Below, piece by piece: positions 3,701 to 19,587 of a stretch of DNA of 64,000 nucleotides. The notes below the pieces were generated by a model, which saw only the letters and a program-made list of their open reading frames with translations, was not told the origin of the DNA and did no database searches. Every line of letters begins with the position of its first letter. The stretch's first letter is position 1. Location of the stretch: NCBI RefSeq assembly GCF_029439465.1, contig NZ_JAROAV010000023.1, positions 1-64,000 of the forward strand, in the 5' to 3' direction. Both the position numbers and the translations under genes were made by a program. The stretch is from Luteipulveratus flavus. Its GTDB lineage: Bacteria; Actinomycetota; Actinomycetes; Actinomycetales; Dermatophilaceae.

Positions 3701-4740
3701 GGGCCACCCTCTCGTCGCGTACGTCGAAGCAGGAACACTAACCCGACGAGCGCGGCCCCAAACCCGGCGAGGATCACCAGCTCGCCGACCCAGGTGCGGT
3801 CGACGTCGACGTAGCGGACCTCGTGGACCTCCGCGTCGGACGGCGCCTGCCGCAGGACGTAGTCGGCGTGGATCGAGCTCGGTTCGAGGGACTGCACCAT
3901 CTTGGTGAGGTAGAGGTGCTGGCCTTCCGTCCCGCCGACGACCGACCCGTCGACCCGACCCGCGAACCGCACCCGGGTGGCGGTACCTGTCGGCGCCGTC
4001 GAGGGTTCCAGCTCCATCCGGTGCAGCGCCGCGACGTACAGCACGACGGACTGCCGGCTGCGGGCGCTGCGGGACAGCCGGATCGGGTAGACGGGCTCCT
4101 CGGTGGCGAACGTCAGCCGGAGCGGTGACAGCTCCCCGCGGAGCGCGGCGCCCCGGGGCGTGAGTCGTACGGCGTAGAGGCGCCAGCCGCGGTCGAGGTA
4201 GGACTGCATGGTCGGCGCCAGATCGGTGCGCGCCGGGTAGCCGTGGGTGGTCAGCCATCGCGTCACCGCGCCGCCGTCGGTACCGCCGATCGTCGTCACC
4301 TCGAACGGACCGACCGTCGTCCGCCCCTCGACGACCACGGCCGGCGAACCGCCCGCCGCTCCACCCGGAGCGCCCGCACCGTCGGAGCCACCCGACCAGT
4401 CAGGCCAGTAGTCGTACCGCTTCTCCACCCGAGGACGGGTCGCCTTCGCCAGGCGGTCGAACAGGCCCTCCTCGCCGAGGGTGACGCCGGCGCCGGCGGG
4501 AGCGGGCATGATCCACGCCGCCGAGCTCGTCTCGCCGCGCACCACCATGGACAGGGTGAGGGTCTCGGTGCTGCCGTACCAACGGACCAGCCCGATCTCA
4601 CCGGCGGAGCGCGCTGTCGCGTCGGACGGGATCATCGCCCCGCACGCACACGCGTACGACGCCGCCGGTCCGACCACCTGCGCCCCCAGACTCAGGGCCA
4701 GCGCCATCAGCAGGACCACGACCCGTCGCAGCGTCACCAT
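3688..4740 (-). CDS. DUF2330 family membrane-anchored protein
   Basis: The 350-residue protein has a signal peptide (residues 1-30, 'VVLLMALALSLGAQVVGPAA') followed directly by 'YACACGAMIPSD', the Cys-rich signature at the mature N terminus of DUF2330 proteins. A C-terminal transmembrane helix ('LVILAGFGAALVGLVFLL') is followed by basic residues, so most of the protein faces outside. Function is unknown. The ATG at 4740 has an AGGAGGAG ribosome binding site about ten bases upstream, so it is chosen over two in-frame ATGs further up. It overlaps the downstream SRPBCC gene. Confidence 0.8.
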   Translation of the reverse strand: MVTLRRVVVLLMALALSLGAQVVGPAASYACACGAMIPSDATARSAGEIGLVRWYGSTETLTLSMVVRGETSSAAWIMPAPAGAGVTLGEEGLFDRLAKATRPRVEKRYDYWPDWSGGSDGAGAPGGAAGGSPAVVVEGRTTVGPFEVTTIGGTDGGAVTRWLTTHGYPARTDLAPTMQSYLDRGWRLYAVRLTPRGAALRGELSPLRLTFATEEPVYPIRLSRSARSRQSVVLYVAALHRMELEPSTAPTGTATRVRFAGRVDGSVVGGTEGQHLYLTKMVQSLEPSSIHADYVLRQAPSDAEVHEVRYVDVDRTWVGELVILAGFGAALVGLVFLLRRTRREGGPWPR

Positions 4741-4865
4741 GTCCGCACTCCTCCTCGTCATGCCGACGCTCGCCGGCTCACGCCGCCTGGGACGCACCGC
4801 GCGGCCGCGGCGATCCGGTGGCGGTCCGGTGGCGGTCCGCCGGGCGCCCCCGACCCGGCAGGCGA

Positions 4866-4894
4866 CCGGCGGACCGAGGAGGGTGGTCCGCCGG
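4866..4894 (-). terminator. hairpin downstream of the M23 peptidase gene
   Basis: CCGGCGGACC (4866-4875) pairs perfectly with GGTCCGCCGG (4885-4894) around a nine-base loop. It lies 14 bases after the leftward stop at 4908. There is no clear T tract, which is normal in this GC range. Confidence 0.55.
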
Positions 4895-4907
4895 CCGTCG
4901 AGGCAGC

Positions 4908-6077
4908 TCAGCTCAGGCTGGTGACCCAGATGCCCGAAGGATAGGACGTGCCGCGTTCGTAGGTGTTCGCCGGACCGATCGCCCGCAGGCTCGAGCAGTC
5001 GACGATGTCGAAGTGCAGGTGCGGCCCGGTGGTGTCGCCGGTGTTGCCCGACCGCGCGATCACCTCACCCCGGGCGACCCGCTCGCCGTCGTACACCTCG
5101 TACGCGCTCAGGTGGGCGTACACCTGGCAGCGGCCCGAGTCGTCCCGGATCATGATCTGCTTCCCGGCGCCGTACGAGGTCCATCCGACGCGCTGGACCG
5201 TGCCGGCGCGGGCGGCGGTGACCGTCGAGCCCGAGGGCATGCCGATGTCGATCGCGGTGCGGTTGTAGACGGTGTTGTGGCTCGTCGACCCGCCCGGGCC
5301 CTGCGTGATCTGGTGCCTGACCCCGTCGGGGTACGGCATCCGGTACGGCGCGTCCGGCGATCCGATCGGTGCGTCCCCGGGCTCGCCGGAGGTGCCGCAC
5401 GGGTACCCACCGAGCGCTGCCCACGTCTGCGGCCCCACCACGCCGTCCGCGGCCAGGCCGTGGCTGCCCTGGAACACCTTGACCGCGGCCAGCGTGGCCG
5501 GACCGAACACGCCGTCGACCTTCAGCTCGAGCGAGCGCTGCAGGGCCGACACCGCGGTGCCCTCCCAGCCGTACCGCAGCACCGTCACCGGTTCGCAGCG
5601 TGGCTTCGGCGTCGGCGGTGCTGGGTCGGAGCCCGGGAAGCCGCCGAGCGCCTGCCAGGTGGCGGTGCCCACGTACCCGTCCGGGGTCAGGCCCTTGCTG
5701 CGCTGGTACGCCTTCACGCGCGCCAGCGTGAGCGGGCCGAAGCTGCCGTCCACCGACAGCCCGCCGACCCGGTTCTGCAGCACCCTGACCAGGTCGCCGC
5801 TGGAGCCGTAGCGCAGCACGACCACCGTTGGCTGGGTCGGCACCGCCGTCGGGGCCGCAGCAGGTGGACGGGCCGCGGCGATGGGCGCACCGCCGAGCTC
5901 CGGGGTGGCCGCCGCCGCGGGCGACGCGGCCGCCACCGCCCCGAGACCGGCCGGCACGGTGATCGCCGCACCGGTCGCCACGACGGCACCGCCTCTGCCG
6001 AGCACCACCGGCCTCACGTTCGCCAGCCGGGACGGCTGCGGTCGCAGGTGGCGGGGGGTCGGCTGTGCAGTCCGCAT
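4908..6077 (-). CDS. secreted M23 (LytM-like) peptidase with two peptidoglycan-binding domains
   Basis: The 389-residue protein has a long basic N terminus and a hydrophobic export segment (about residues 25-57). Two PG_binding_1 repeats follow (about 85-145 and 160-220), each with the 'VDGxFGPxT...DGxVGxxTWxALGG' pattern, then an M23 metallopeptidase domain (about 265-380). The zinc motif 'GPHLHFDI' is intact. The first zinc ligand is not in the usual HxxxD spacing: 'STSHNTVYNRTAIDI' puts the His nine residues before the Asp, a spacing I recall in an M23 subgroup. It probably cuts peptide cross-links in peptidoglycan. GAGAGGAG upstream supports ATG at 6077. It lies 55 bases after the NlpC/P60 gene, probably in one operon. 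Confidence 0.88.
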   Translation of the reverse strand: MRTAQPTPRHLRPQPSRLANVRPVVLGRGGAVVATGAAITVPAGLGAVAAASPAAAATPELGGAPIAAARPPAAAPTAVPTQPTVVVLRYGSSGDLVRVLQNRVGGLSVDGSFGPLTLARVKAYQRSKGLTPDGYVGTATWQALGGFPGSDPAPPTPKPRCEPVTVLRYGWEGTAVSALQRSLELKVDGVFGPATLAAVKVFQGSHGLAADGVVGPQTWAALGGYPCGTSGEPGDAPIGSPDAPYRMPYPDGVRHQITQGPGGSTSHNTVYNRTAIDIGMPSGSTVTAARAGTVQRVGWTSYGAGKQIMIRDDSGRCQVYAHLSAYEVYDGERVARGEVIARSGNTGDTTGPHLHFDIVDCSSLRAIGPANTYERGTSYPSGIWVTSLS

Positions 6078-6132
6078 CGTGCTCCTCTCGGGCGCGCCGT
6101 CCGGCGCACGGTGGTCGTGGCGTCGGCGGGTC

Positions 6133-7179
6133 TCAGAGCAGGCGGATCGCCTTCACCGGTTCGGTGTACATGCGGTGGATCGAGATGTTCGTCCCCGGCC
6201 TCGATGCGTCGATGATCGTGCCGTCGCCGGCGTAGATCCCGACGTGGTGGACCGGACTGTAGAAGAAGACGAGGTCGCCGATGTGCAGGTCGTCCAGGTC
6301 GACGCCGGGCCGGAACCGCGACTGCTCCAGCGACGTGCGCGGGATGTAGATGCCGACCTGCCGGTACACGTACTGGGTGAGGCCCGAGCAGTCGAAGCTG
6401 GTCTCCGGCGTCTCGCCGCCCCAGCTGTACGGGTAGCCGATGTAGCGCTTGGCGATGTCGAGGACGTCCTGGCCGGTGGCGCCGCTGGGACGGCTGGGCG
6501 GCTCCTCGCTGCACGGGTAGCCGCCGAGGGCCCGCCAGGTGTTCGGCCCGACGATGCCGTCGACCGTCAGGTCGTGGCTGCGCTGGTACGCCTTGACCGC
6601 GTCGAGCGTCCACGGCCCGAAGTCGCCGTCCACCTGGATGCCGAGCCGCCGCTGCAGCACCTCGACCACGTCGCCCTTGGCGCCGTACCGCACGACGTAG
6701 GACGTGCACGAGGGCGCCGGGTCTTCGCCGCCGCCGGAGGGAAGACCGCCGAGCGCCGCCCAGGTGTACGGGCCCACGACGCCGTCCACCTGGAGGTCCT
6801 TCGTCCGCTGGAAGGCCTTGACCGCGGTCAGCGTCTGGGGGCCGAAGCTGCCGTCGACGGAGATGCGCAGGCGCTGCTGCACGACCTCCACGAGGTCTCC
6901 GCGCGAGCCGTAGCGCAGCACCGTGACCGGCGCGGTCGGGGCCGCCGGGAGTGCCGCACGCCCGACCGACGGAGCGGCACCGGGGAGTGCGGCGGTCGGC
7001 GCAGCGGTCTGGAGGGGCGCGGCCTGGGCGGGGGCGGCGGAGAGCACGCTGCCGAGCGAGGTCGGCACCGCCAGCGCGGTGCCGGTGGCGAGCAGGGTGC
7101 CGCGGCGAACCTGCAGTGCGGGCCGGACCGCCGAACGGGGAGGACGCGGACGCAGGTGCTGCGGTTCGTGCGAGGCCAT
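6133..7179 (-). CDS. secreted NlpC/P60 peptidase with two peptidoglycan-binding domains
   Basis: The 348-residue protein has an export signal ending near 'SAAPAQAAP' (about residue 53), two PG_binding_1 domains (about 85-145 and 155-220) and a C-terminal NlpC/P60 domain (about 235-348). The catalytic Cys is in 'FDCSGLTQYVY' (near residue 260) and the His in 'VHHVGIYAGDG' (near 312), so the enzyme looks active. NlpC/P60 enzymes cut D-Glu-to-diamino acid bonds in peptidoglycan stems. Upstream lies a long leader and a sequence element shared with the next NlpC/P60 gene. The ATG at 7179 has only a moderate AAAGG-type ribosome binding site. Confidence 0.9.
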   Translation of the reverse strand: MASHEPQHLRPRPPRSAVRPALQVRRGTLLATGTALAVPTSLGSVLSAAPAQAAPLQTAAPTAALPGAAPSVGRAALPAAPTAPVTVLRYGSRGDLVEVVQQRLRISVDGSFGPQTLTAVKAFQRTKDLQVDGVVGPYTWAALGGLPSGGGEDPAPSCTSYVVRYGAKGDVVEVLQRRLGIQVDGDFGPWTLDAVKAYQRSHDLTVDGIVGPNTWRALGGYPCSEEPPSRPSGATGQDVLDIAKRYIGYPYSWGGETPETSFDCSGLTQYVYRQVGIYIPRTSLEQSRFRPGVDLDDLHIGDLVFFYSPVHHVGIYAGDGTIIDASRPGTNISIHRMYTEPVKAIRLL

Positions 7180-17049: not shown

Positions 17050-18144
17050 ATGGGAAACGTGCGCGTCGCCATCGTCGGCGTCGGCAACTGCGCGAGCTCG
17101 CTCGTTCAGGGTGTTGAGTACTACAAGGACGCCGACGCGTCCGGCACCGTGCCGGGCCTGATGCACGTCCAGTTCGGTGACTACCACGTCAACGACGTGG
17201 AGTTCGTCGCGGCGTTCGACGTCGACGACAAGAAGGTCGGCAAGGACCTCGCCGAGGCGATCAACTCCTCGGAGAACAACACCATCAAGATCTGCGACGT
17301 CCCCACCACGGGCGTCGAGGTGCAGCGCGGCCACACCCTGGACGGCCTCGGCAAGTACTACCGCCTCACCATCGAGGAGTCGGGCGCCGCGCCGGTCGAC
17401 GTCGTGCAGGCGCTGAAGGACGCGAAGGTCGACGTCCTCGTCTCCTACCTGCCCGTGGGCTCGGAGGAGGCCGACAAGTTCTACGCGCAGTGCGCGATCG
17501 ACGCGGGTGTCGCCTTCGTCAACGCGCTGCCCGTCTTCATCGCCTCCGACCCGGAGTGGGCCAAGAAGTTCGAGGACGCCGGCGTCCCGATCATCGGTGA
17601 CGACATCAAGTCCCAGGTCGGCGCGACCATCACCCACCGCGTGATGGCCAAGCTGTTCGAGGACCGCGGCGTCGTGCTCGACCGCACATACCAGCTGAAC
17701 GTCGGCGGCAACATGGACTTCAAGAACATGCTCGAGCGCGAGCGCCTGGAGTCCAAGAAGGTCTCCAAGACCCAGGCCGTCACGTCCAACCTGACCGGCC
17801 CGCTGGCCGGCGTCGGCGCCGACGACCGCAACGTCCACATCGGCCCGTCGGACTACGTCGCGTGGCTGGACGACCGCAAGTGGGCGTACGTCCGCCTCGA
17901 GGGTCGCGCGTTCGGTGACGTGCCGCTGAACCTGGAGTACAAGCTCGAGGTCTGGGACTCCCCCAACTCGGCCGGCATCATCATCGACGCGATCCGTGCG
18001 GCGAAGATCGCCAAGGACCGCGGCATCGGCGGCGCGCTGCTGTCCGCGTCCTCGTACCTGATGAAGTCCCCGCCGGAGCAGCGCGAGGACACCCTCGGCC
18101 GCGCCAAGCTCGAGGCGTTCATCAAGGGCGACGAGCCCCGCTGA
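17050..18144 (+). CDS. ino1: myo-inositol-1-phosphate synthase
   Basis: The 364-residue enzyme converts glucose-6-phosphate to inositol-1-phosphate with NAD, the first step to phosphatidylinositol and mycothiol. The Rossmann motif '[20 protein letters not shown]' is at the N terminus. Other family blocks include '[20 protein letters not shown]', '[10 protein letters not shown]'-like '[18 protein letters not shown]', '[19 protein letters not shown]', '[13 protein letters not shown]' and '[13 protein letters not shown]'. GAGGAG upstream supports the ATG. It follows padR in one operon and ends at a strong hairpin. Confidence 0.97.
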
Positions 18145-18171: not shown

Positions 18172-18213
18172 GACGAGGCCCGGCTCTCCCTTCGTGGGAG
18201 GCCGGGCCTCGTC
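18172..18213 (+). terminator. hairpin terminator of padR-ino1
   Basis: GACGAGGCCCGGC (18172-18184) pairs perfectly with GCCGGGCCTCGTC (18201-18213), enclosing a second short stem CTCCC/GGGAG. It starts 28 bases after the ino1 stop. A near copy of the whole hairpin lies at 21157-21215. Confidence 0.85.
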
Positions 18214-18218
18214 ATGCC

Positions 18219-18307
18219 GAGTGCGCGTGTCCTGCGCCGATCCGCCGGGTCGAGTGCGCGTGTCCTGCGCCGTTCACGGCGGAACACTCGCAGGACTCGC
18301 GCACTCG
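18219..18307. repeat. REP-like element, copy A
   Basis: CGAGTGCGCGTGTCCTGC occurs as two direct copies (from 18219 and from 18251), followed by an inverted copy ending GACTCGCGCACTCG (18289-18307). The second and third form 19-bp arms with one mismatch. A related palindrome lies at 19395-19453, on the other side of the GH16 gene. Confidence 0.75.
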
Positions 18308-18350
18308 GCCCGGCGGCGGGCGGGGCCGTACGCGTAGGGGCGGGCGGGGG

Positions 18351-19204
18351 TCAGCTGCCACCGGTCACGTGCACGTAGTCGACGACCAGCTGCTGCGGGA
18401 GCTGGGTGCTGCCGTCGGGGTCGCCGGGCCAGTAGCCGCCCACCGCGAGGTTGAGGATCAGGTAGAAGGGGTGCTCGAACACCCACGGGTTGCCGCCGGG
18501 GTCCGCGTCTCGTAGACGTTGCCGTCGACCGACCAGGTGATCTGGTTCGGCGACCAGTCGACCGCGAAGGTGTGGAAGTCGTCGGAGAACGTGCCGCCGG
18601 CCAGGGTGTACGCCGCGCCGAGGCCGCCCGAGCCGGAGTAGCCCGGGCCGTGGATGGTGCCGTGCACGGCGCTGGGCTCGAAGCCGACGTTCTCCATGAC
18701 GTCGATCTCGCCGGACTGTGGCCAGCCGACACTGCCGATGTCCTCCCCCAGCATCCAGAACGCGGGCCACATGCCCTGCCCGCGCGGCAGCTTCATCCGG
18801 GCTTCCACGTGGCCGTGCGTCGTCGTGAACTTCTGCGCGGTGTTCAGCCGGGCCGACGTGTACTCGCAGGAGCCGTACCAGCAGGAGTAGCCGGCGGGGT
18901 TCTCCTTCTTTGCGGTGATGACCAGGTTGCCGTTGCCGTCGAGCGCGGCGTTGTCCGTGCCGCCCGTGTAGTACTGCCGCTCGTGGTTGTCGACGTTGTC
19001 GCCGGTCTGGGACGTCCACCGGGAGCCGTCGACGCCGCTGCCGGCCGGGCCGTCGAAGTCCTCGGTGAAGGTCTGCGCCAACGCAGCGGAGCGCGCGGTG
19101 GTGCTGTCGCGCATGGTCGTTGCGGATGCCGGGAGCCAGGTCGCGCCGGCCAGCAGAGCAGCCGCCGTACCGCCAACGAGGGTGGTGCGTGTGGTCTTTC
19201 GCAT
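18351..19204 (-). pseudogene. GH16 family beta-glucanase, frameshifted
   Basis: The first frame gives a signal peptide ('LVGGTAAALLAGATWLPASA') and a GH16 domain with the catalytic motif 'GEIDVMENVG' (E-x-D-x-x-E) and 'MWPAFWMLGEDIG'. Near 18505, at 'DGNVYETRTP', reading breaks off; the family sequence continues in another frame as 'GGNPWVFEHPFYLILNLAVG' to the normal C-terminal strand 'LPQQLVVDYVHV' at 18351. A short deletion in a GC-rich repeated tract (GCGGACCCCGGCGG) explains the shift. Both halves are otherwise intact, so this is a recent mutation or a sequencing error. An intact enzyme would cut beta-1,3 or mixed-linkage glucans outside the cell. The ATG at 19204 has AGGA upstream. Confidence 0.8.
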
Positions 19205-19587
19205 CGGATCGCCGTCCTGGTAGGTGTTCGGTCGGATATCTCTCCACCGTGGCCACCCGGGCGGCGCATCGGGCTCCCGACGTCCGGCGAGCGAGGCCAA
19301 TTTGTGTCGAGGGCGTACGAACGGTCCGGCGACTCGCGGGCGCCGGCGTGCCCGCGGTGGGCCCCGCGGCGGCCTCGAGGTGCGTTCACTCCGGCCGAGT
19401 GCGCGCGTCCTGCCACTTTCGGACGCCGGAACCCGCACGACGCGCGCGCTCGGCGGCCTGGACGGGGCAGAACGTGGGGCGTCGGTCAGAAATGCGTCAA
19501 GAAGGGCCCGAGATGCGTTGCGGCCTGCCAGTATTCGCGCGGAAGGCGAGTCGGGGTCCGGCAGCCCGGGCGATGTACAGGAGACAG
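19205..19587. other. intergenic region without a gene
   Basis: This 383-base gap lies between the GH16 start and a small rightward gene. It holds REP-like copy B and presumably both promoters. I see no supported gene; open frames here are Arg/Ala/Pro-rich shadows. Confidence 0.6.
19395..19453. repeat. REP-like element, copy B
   Basis: CCGAGTGCGCGCGTCCTGC (19395-19413) and GCACGACGCGCGCGCTCGG (19435-19453) form 19-bp arms with two mismatches around a 21-base loop. The arm sequence matches copy A at 18219-18307. Confidence 0.75.

Follow-up and report, generated by a model that had tools for sequence, protein, structure and literature searches.

A predicted nuclease gene of the DUF559 family is flanked by genome-specific, dispersed palindromes in Luteipulveratus flavus and its relatives

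Genes for DUF559-domain proteins are strongly associated with short palindromes that lie on both sides of the gene and are dispersed through the same genome. Two of these palindromes, copies A and B, flank a GH16 glucanase gene in the 64,000-nucleotide stretch of the Luteipulveratus flavus genome (G000) analysed here, hereafter the window. The palindromes are lineage-specific, persist at matching positions in related genomes, change in concert, and are nearly identical within a genome where they flank the DUF559 gene. REP-like repeats are widespread, and the arrangement resembles known selfish DNA but is built around a different enzyme. We think it probable that the system is RAYT/REP-like but driven by an unrelated nuclease, which would spread and homogenize its palindromes by cutting and copying.

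The partner gene in G000 encodes a 294-aa protein with a DUF559 domain (G000:C56:174847-175728; L067:7848-8732), is the only DUF559 homologue of the genome at E<=1e-15, and has the palindrome on both sides. Its orthologue in the genus-mate G001 is bracketed in the same way, and in G021, which belongs to another genus and has other arms, an element lies 53 bp upstream of a DUF559 homologue with 40% identity. A palindrome about 50-90 bp upstream is a feature of many DUF559 genes. Loops of a gene-flanking pair are near-identical within a genome (20/21 in G000 and 21/22 in G001, with a 70-nt identical run in G002), and they differ between genomes.

We scored hairpins with a 16-bp stem, at most 2 mismatches, and a loop of up to 30, and called palindromes matching when the two sides had 10 or more consecutive nt in common. 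Matching palindromes were present on both sides of 29/69 DUF559 loci, leaving 40/69 without them at this criterion, versus 0/66 control loci. Among 49 DUF559 loci (L229, near a contig end, was excluded), a hairpin was found upstream in 31, downstream in 35, and on both sides in 26, with the two sides matching in 23; among 20 lower-scoring loci, the corresponding counts were 10, 7, 6, and 6. The downstream window began at the stop codon for these 20 loci and at the aligned end for the 49 loci and the controls. Loci that were fetched once the pattern had been noticed passed the matching criterion in 14/40 cases. The GAF-gene control had a hairpin upstream in 2/24 loci and downstream in 1/24, the IspD control in 7/20 and 3/20, and the INO1 control in 1/22 and 15/22, with matching pairs in 0/24, 0/20, and 0/22, respectively. 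Single hairpins are not specific, given the upstream count for IspD and the downstream count for INO1. The background away from genes was 17 hairpins in 131.5 kb. At the same criterion, the second DUF559 locus of G001 had no hairpin, and that of G002 had one. The second DUF559 gene of G021 (L258) is flanked by a different arm type, so the genes of one genome can differ in their palindrome.

DUF559 homologues at E<=1e-15 are encoded by 151/186 family genomes, and the system may therefore be common in the family. A contig scan of named genomes with the DUF559 protein returned one locus, in Janibacter terrae. Viral contigs yielded no relatives, and relatives were found in four plasmid records and one phage record; because phages and plasmids hold almost none, the gene appears to be chromosomal. 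The four loci from the plasmid collection include an Arthrobacter locus with matching palindromes on both sides (L290), one with related palindromes (L289), and two that are not convincing (L288, L291). The Arthrobacter replicon belongs to another family, where the two-sided arrangement is repeated.

The G000 protein matches PF04480 with 36.5 bits (cut-off 20.6), and C-terminal matches at E<=0.01 were obtained to PF04480 for 36 and to PF18741 for 20 of the 51 homologues aligned. E196 and E240 are invariant, and D229 and H246 are conserved in at least 90% of sequences. A PDB profile search recovered the endonuclease-like 3hrl at E 1e-4 and the mobile-intron protein 3r3p at E 1.5, which is below significance. 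With its conserved acidic residues, the C-terminus is predicted to be a PD-(D/E)XK-like nuclease domain. PADLOC models for AbiEi match 33/51 homologues at E<=0.01, and the G000 protein itself is not among them. A structure model of the Janibacter homologue, built from one sequence, had a mean pLDDT of 38 and was not used.

The G000 family comprises 32 palindromes, of which 31 places on both strands are found with a covariance model (R1, built from 30 elements) and one element is split by an insertion sequence (IS). The arm is 17 nt long (GAGTGCGCG-N-GTCCTGC), the loop is 20-22 nt, and the core is 54-56 bp; the stem usually continues into GGCC/GGTC, with pyrimidine-rich left flanks and purine-rich right flanks. 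A search of the 4.15-Mb genome with the 17-nt arm at up to 2 mismatches gave 41 forward and 42 reverse matches, versus 10 and 7 for the backwards control, a difference that is not due to chance. The exact two-arm pattern occurs at 8 places (control, 0) and in 1/186 family genomes, and a relaxed form gave no match in a scan of named genomes from which near records were perhaps left out. Extra half-arms accompany 12 of the 31 elements read with a full palindrome.

By the calls of a simple, crude gene caller (one that missed the G021 DUF559 gene, which was recovered by tblastn), 28/32 G000 elements lie outside genes in fetched DNA that is 87% coding. The 32 contexts are 8 convergent, 8 divergent, 12 tandem, and 4 inside reading frames. 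Across three genomes, 13/56 elements lie between divergent genes, and between tandem genes the element is closer to the stop of the upstream gene in 18/21 cases, with 1 tie. Elements also cluster: the two members lie within 2.1 kb of each other in 4 pairs, where 0.52 would be expected (P 0.003), and given this excess of close pairs, the palindromes may be linked to small gene cassettes. Pfam scans of 40 genes that flank or enclose G000 elements revealed no common functional theme, which speaks against a regulon.

Copies A and B (Table 1) make up one of these four close pairs. A sequence-only reading of the window had described REP-like palindromes on both sides of a broken GH16 gene, and the palindromes are real: the arms are confirmed at both copies, and they recur genome-wide in a dispersed, mostly intergenic family that can broadly be called REP-like. 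The arms had been given as 19 bases, and the common arm (CGAGTGCGCG-N-GTCCTGC) has 18 letters. Copy A is indeed compound, as had been proposed, with a full palindrome at 18252-18306 and one direct half-arm that starts 33 bp to its left. It scores 76.0 bits with model R1 and has a 93% inverted repeat; copy B scores 65.9 bits with a 79% inverted repeat, both elements being in the training set. The arms of copy B are imperfect, with 2 mismatches in the minus-strand arm, and the loops of the two copies differ. The GH16 reading frame shifts near 18.5 kb; the break is either a real pseudogene or a draft sequencing error, the latter being possible because the genome is a 57-contig draft. Rfam gave no match at the gathering score in the window.

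Table 1. Palindrome copies A and B and neighbouring features in the window.
Feature	Positions	Strand	Details
myo-Inositol-1-phosphate synthase gene (ino1), convergent neighbour and synteny anchor	17050..18144	+	PF01658, E 3.5e-34
Terminator-like hairpin 3' of ino1, outside the palindrome family	18172..18213	+	13-nt perfect arms; different sequence
Extra direct half-arm of copy A	18219..18235	+	exact family-arm match; next arm 33 bp away
Copy A, full palindrome	18246..18312		arms 18252-18268 (+) and 18290-18306 (-); 21-nt loop
GH16 glucanase gene lying between copies A and B, divided into two reading frames	18351..19213	-	PF00722, E 2e-27 on 18458-19213
Copy B, single full palindrome	19391..19457		arms 19397-19413 (+) and 19435-19451 (-); 21-nt loop

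The dispersed palindromes are specific to their lineage. We joined seven DUF559-flanking palindromes and two reversed controls and searched with them in the seven genomes of origin. Every match listed falls in the genome's own palindrome, and none falls in those of other lineages or in the reversed controls, aside from few-base overlaps at the ends. Because matches are listed down to about E 2e-5, the counts of places are lower bounds: at least 22 in G002 (some of them halves of IS-split copies), at least 17 in G182, at least 13 in G176, at least 11 in G050, at least 8 in G063, at least 7 in G064, and at least 5 in G156. The identity of DUF559 proteins and the similarity of arms are correlated weakly but more than under permutation (Mantel test, r 0.165, 7/2000 permutations), in a set to which some probable terminator hairpins contribute.

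Under strict filters, the covariance model found matches in 3 of 58 relatives, namely G000 (31), G001 (15), and G021 (9). The arm types are GAGTGCGCG(T)GTCCTGC in G000, GAGTGCGCATGTCG(C/T)GC in G001, and GAGTCGGCGTGTCGTGC in G021, and both arms of a palindrome vary together. Alignment of 41 elements of the three genomes (A2, which includes 18 of the 31 G000 elements; the weakest of the 15 G001 matches, L131, was excluded both here and from the arm table) has 93.5% of cells paired, with 15/23 pairs changed on both sides, a level reached in none of the 500 shuffles. G000 and G001 have eight elements at matching positions; the pair L065/L123 has one adjacent flank gene in common, and the others have both flanks or the same gene. 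Arm position 9 is G in 59/60 G000 arms and A in 28/28 G001 arms, and at the eight matching sites it is G in 16/16 G000 arms and A in 16/16 G001 arms. Common positions between G000 and G002, whose arm is quite different, were found for 2/18 G002 loci examined (L278 with L058, and L283 with L051 and L130). Some of the persistent sites are in frame within coding sequence, in the linker between two enzymes of a CydDC-like fusion in two species (L050, L121) and in the linker of a CobB/CobC-like fusion in three (L051, L130, L283). The palindrome sites are old, and the sequences at these sites have been replaced or converted.

Among 13 aligned loci of the ispD gene, G000 (L059) carries an in-frame palindrome within the IspD domain, G001 (L166) carries a decayed one, and 11 carry none. 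The decayed G001 palindrome includes a 20-nt stretch identical to the palindromes of G002, and among all fetched loci this stretch is otherwise present only in G002 loci. The alignment reads as an in-frame insertion with no readable target duplication. Empty sites in intergenic DNA of G001 and G002 were too diverged to read, and none of the sites gave a clean empty state together with a target duplication.

If the palindromes are propagated by a RAYT/REP-like system with a nuclease at its center, copies A and B would be non-autonomous members of the family, and their partner would be the DUF559 protein encoded elsewhere in G000. The N-terminal part of that protein may recognize the arms, the nuclease-like C-terminal domain may cut or nick at the palindrome, and repair from another copy would then plant or overwrite palindromes. 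Homing-like gene conversion of this kind would spread the family, keep the gene-flanking copies identical, and cause the copies of one genome to drift together; it is the concerted arms and the identical flanking pairs that point, indirectly, to homing. Counting against this reading are the 40/69 DUF559 loci that have no matching palindromes on both sides, the second DUF559 loci of G001 and G002, and the weakness of the correlation between proteins and arms. More tentatively, and as something we regard as possible rather than probable, a nuclease in place of a transposase would propagate the palindromes by cutting them or their precursor sites, with repair planting and continually overwriting them, so that each genome has one private arm and, at existing sites, older families give way to that of whichever DUF559 gene currently dominates. 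ispD may be an example of such replacement, with the palindrome of the genome itself in G000 and a decayed G002-type palindrome in G001.

The best rival to nuclease-driven spread is an operator role, and the two could coexist. The DUF559/AbiEi-like protein would be a transcription factor that autoregulates through the flanking pair and controls the genes at the scattered copies as a regulon. AbiEi binds inverted repeats in its own promoter, and both the matches of AbiEi models to many of the homologues and the palindrome upstream of many DUF559 genes are consistent with such a role. We nevertheless consider it unlikely, because the gene has a matching copy on its downstream side as well, the scattered copies occur between convergent genes (8/32), inside genes (4/32), and near 3' ends, the flanking genes are functionally unrelated, and the protein retains its nuclease-like domain. 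The palindromes might instead be bidirectional terminators or other RNA hairpins under selection on transcript ends, with DUF559 merely tending to lie between them. A strong hairpin with covariation and the position near the upstream stop in tandem pairs would suit terminators, but the elements have no T-run, 13/56 lie between divergent genes and others inside coding frames, and terminators are not expected to be sequence-identical genome-wide, lineage-specific, or concentrated on DUF559; we find this explanation improbable.

A further alternative, raised by the sequence-only reading, is that the A/B pair forms a cassette boundary through which GH16 was acquired or will be lost. GH16 is not syntenic in relatives, for it was not found near ino1 in 12/12 of them (fetched stretches around ino1, an anchor matched in 21/22 genomes; one stretch is cut short by the end of its contig), and the existence of four close pairs and of an AadA-like gene next to the L060 element, without counterpart in the aligned G001 stretch, could also be read as signs of cassettes. 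However, the loops of A and B differ, both copies belong to the genome-wide set, and a hairpin scan of 5 of the 12 stretches found no family member that could be the single recombined palindrome predicted for GH16-free relatives. The palindromes are explicable without GH16, and we consider a cassette boundary very unlikely. Ordinary REP/RAYT elements whose tyrosine transposase was lost or missed would share the architecture and dispersal of REPINs, and loss of the transposase is known (in the cited part of PMC3733652). Here, the RAYT transposase (IS200/IS605 type, Y1_Tnp; PF01797), a check suggested by the earlier reading, was matched in 0/38 genomes including G000, with the control matched in 5/14; no GTAG tetranucleotide was seen at the palindrome end in the aligned elements of three genomes, whose stem base is GGCC/GGTC, and the gene flanked by the palindromes belongs to another family, so that we give this account hardly any credence.

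Equally hard to credit is the idea that the copies are MITEs mobilized by an IS30-family element (NF033563, E 6e-71), which interrupts the loop of one of the G000 palindromes (L044:5272-6441, C24). The same element is found in the loops of three G002 palindromes (L285, L286, L287) whose arms are unrelated to those of G000, and the ends of the element are unlike the palindrome arms. On these grounds, we regard it as an invader of the loop that uses palindromes as its target, and as a very unlikely mobilizer; judging by the copies inside palindromes, its target seems to be the hairpin and not the sequence. IS insertion into the palindrome is also known from REP elements, as the behavior of IS1397-type elements.

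These palindromes have several features in common with REP/RAYT systems (REPtrons and REPINs), as the cited parts of the literature describe them (RAYT features, PMC2817692, PMC3733652; REPINs, PMC3116915). In both, family-specific palindromes are dispersed in one genome, a single gene is flanked by the same palindrome (the DUF559 gene in G000, G001, G002, and others, which is not a RAYT), and copies are mostly extragenic, near 3' ends, and sometimes inside genes. They differ in the partner, which is a PD-(D/E)XK-like DUF559 protein here and a Y1 HUH transposase there, in the GTAG tag, and in copy number, with tens of copies here rather than over 100; actinobacteria are also not listed among GTAG hosts in the cited part of PMC3733652. 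The proposed system would work like a REPtron, but its enzyme and the tag place it outside REPtron membership. The same part of that paper states that CGTC-tagged REPs lack a dedicated transposase, and these are likewise REP-like palindromes without a RAYT. Vsr-like/EDxHD homing endonucleases (I-Bth0305I, PDB 3r3p) offer a weak profile match to the nuclease core and a cutting-and-copying logic that would explain spread and homogenization if homing occurs here; unlike them, the present system involves no intron or intein, and the copied unit would be a palindrome of 60-70 bp. AbiEi proteins resemble many of the homologues through the model matches, but the C-terminal half here is a nuclease-like domain.

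RAYT is the only dedicated REP partner described in the REP literature as cited (PMC3733652, in part), and a link between DUF559 and dispersed palindromes was not found in the open-licence PMC literature, which mostly leaves out subscription papers and bioRxiv. If the proposal is right, a second, unrelated partner would explain RAYT-free palindromes and give a function to a domain of unknown function, and dozens of short sequences that change together at fixed places would provide a bacterial model of concerted evolution. Because each DUF559 gene comes with a predicted site, binding and cutting are directly testable.

Other repeats were seen near some of these loci. In G021, a 185-bp direct repeat (96%) flanks a 2-kb island (L132, about 3950-6340), and the repeat contains the palindrome and a T-rich terminator-like hairpin. 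In G000, L060:2014-2120 is matched in part many times in both G001 and G002 and is apparently another dispersed repeat. Where G000 and G001 have the DUF559 unit, G002 has GGGTCTCGATACG-type palindromes (L260:6500-6900), which may be another dispersed family.
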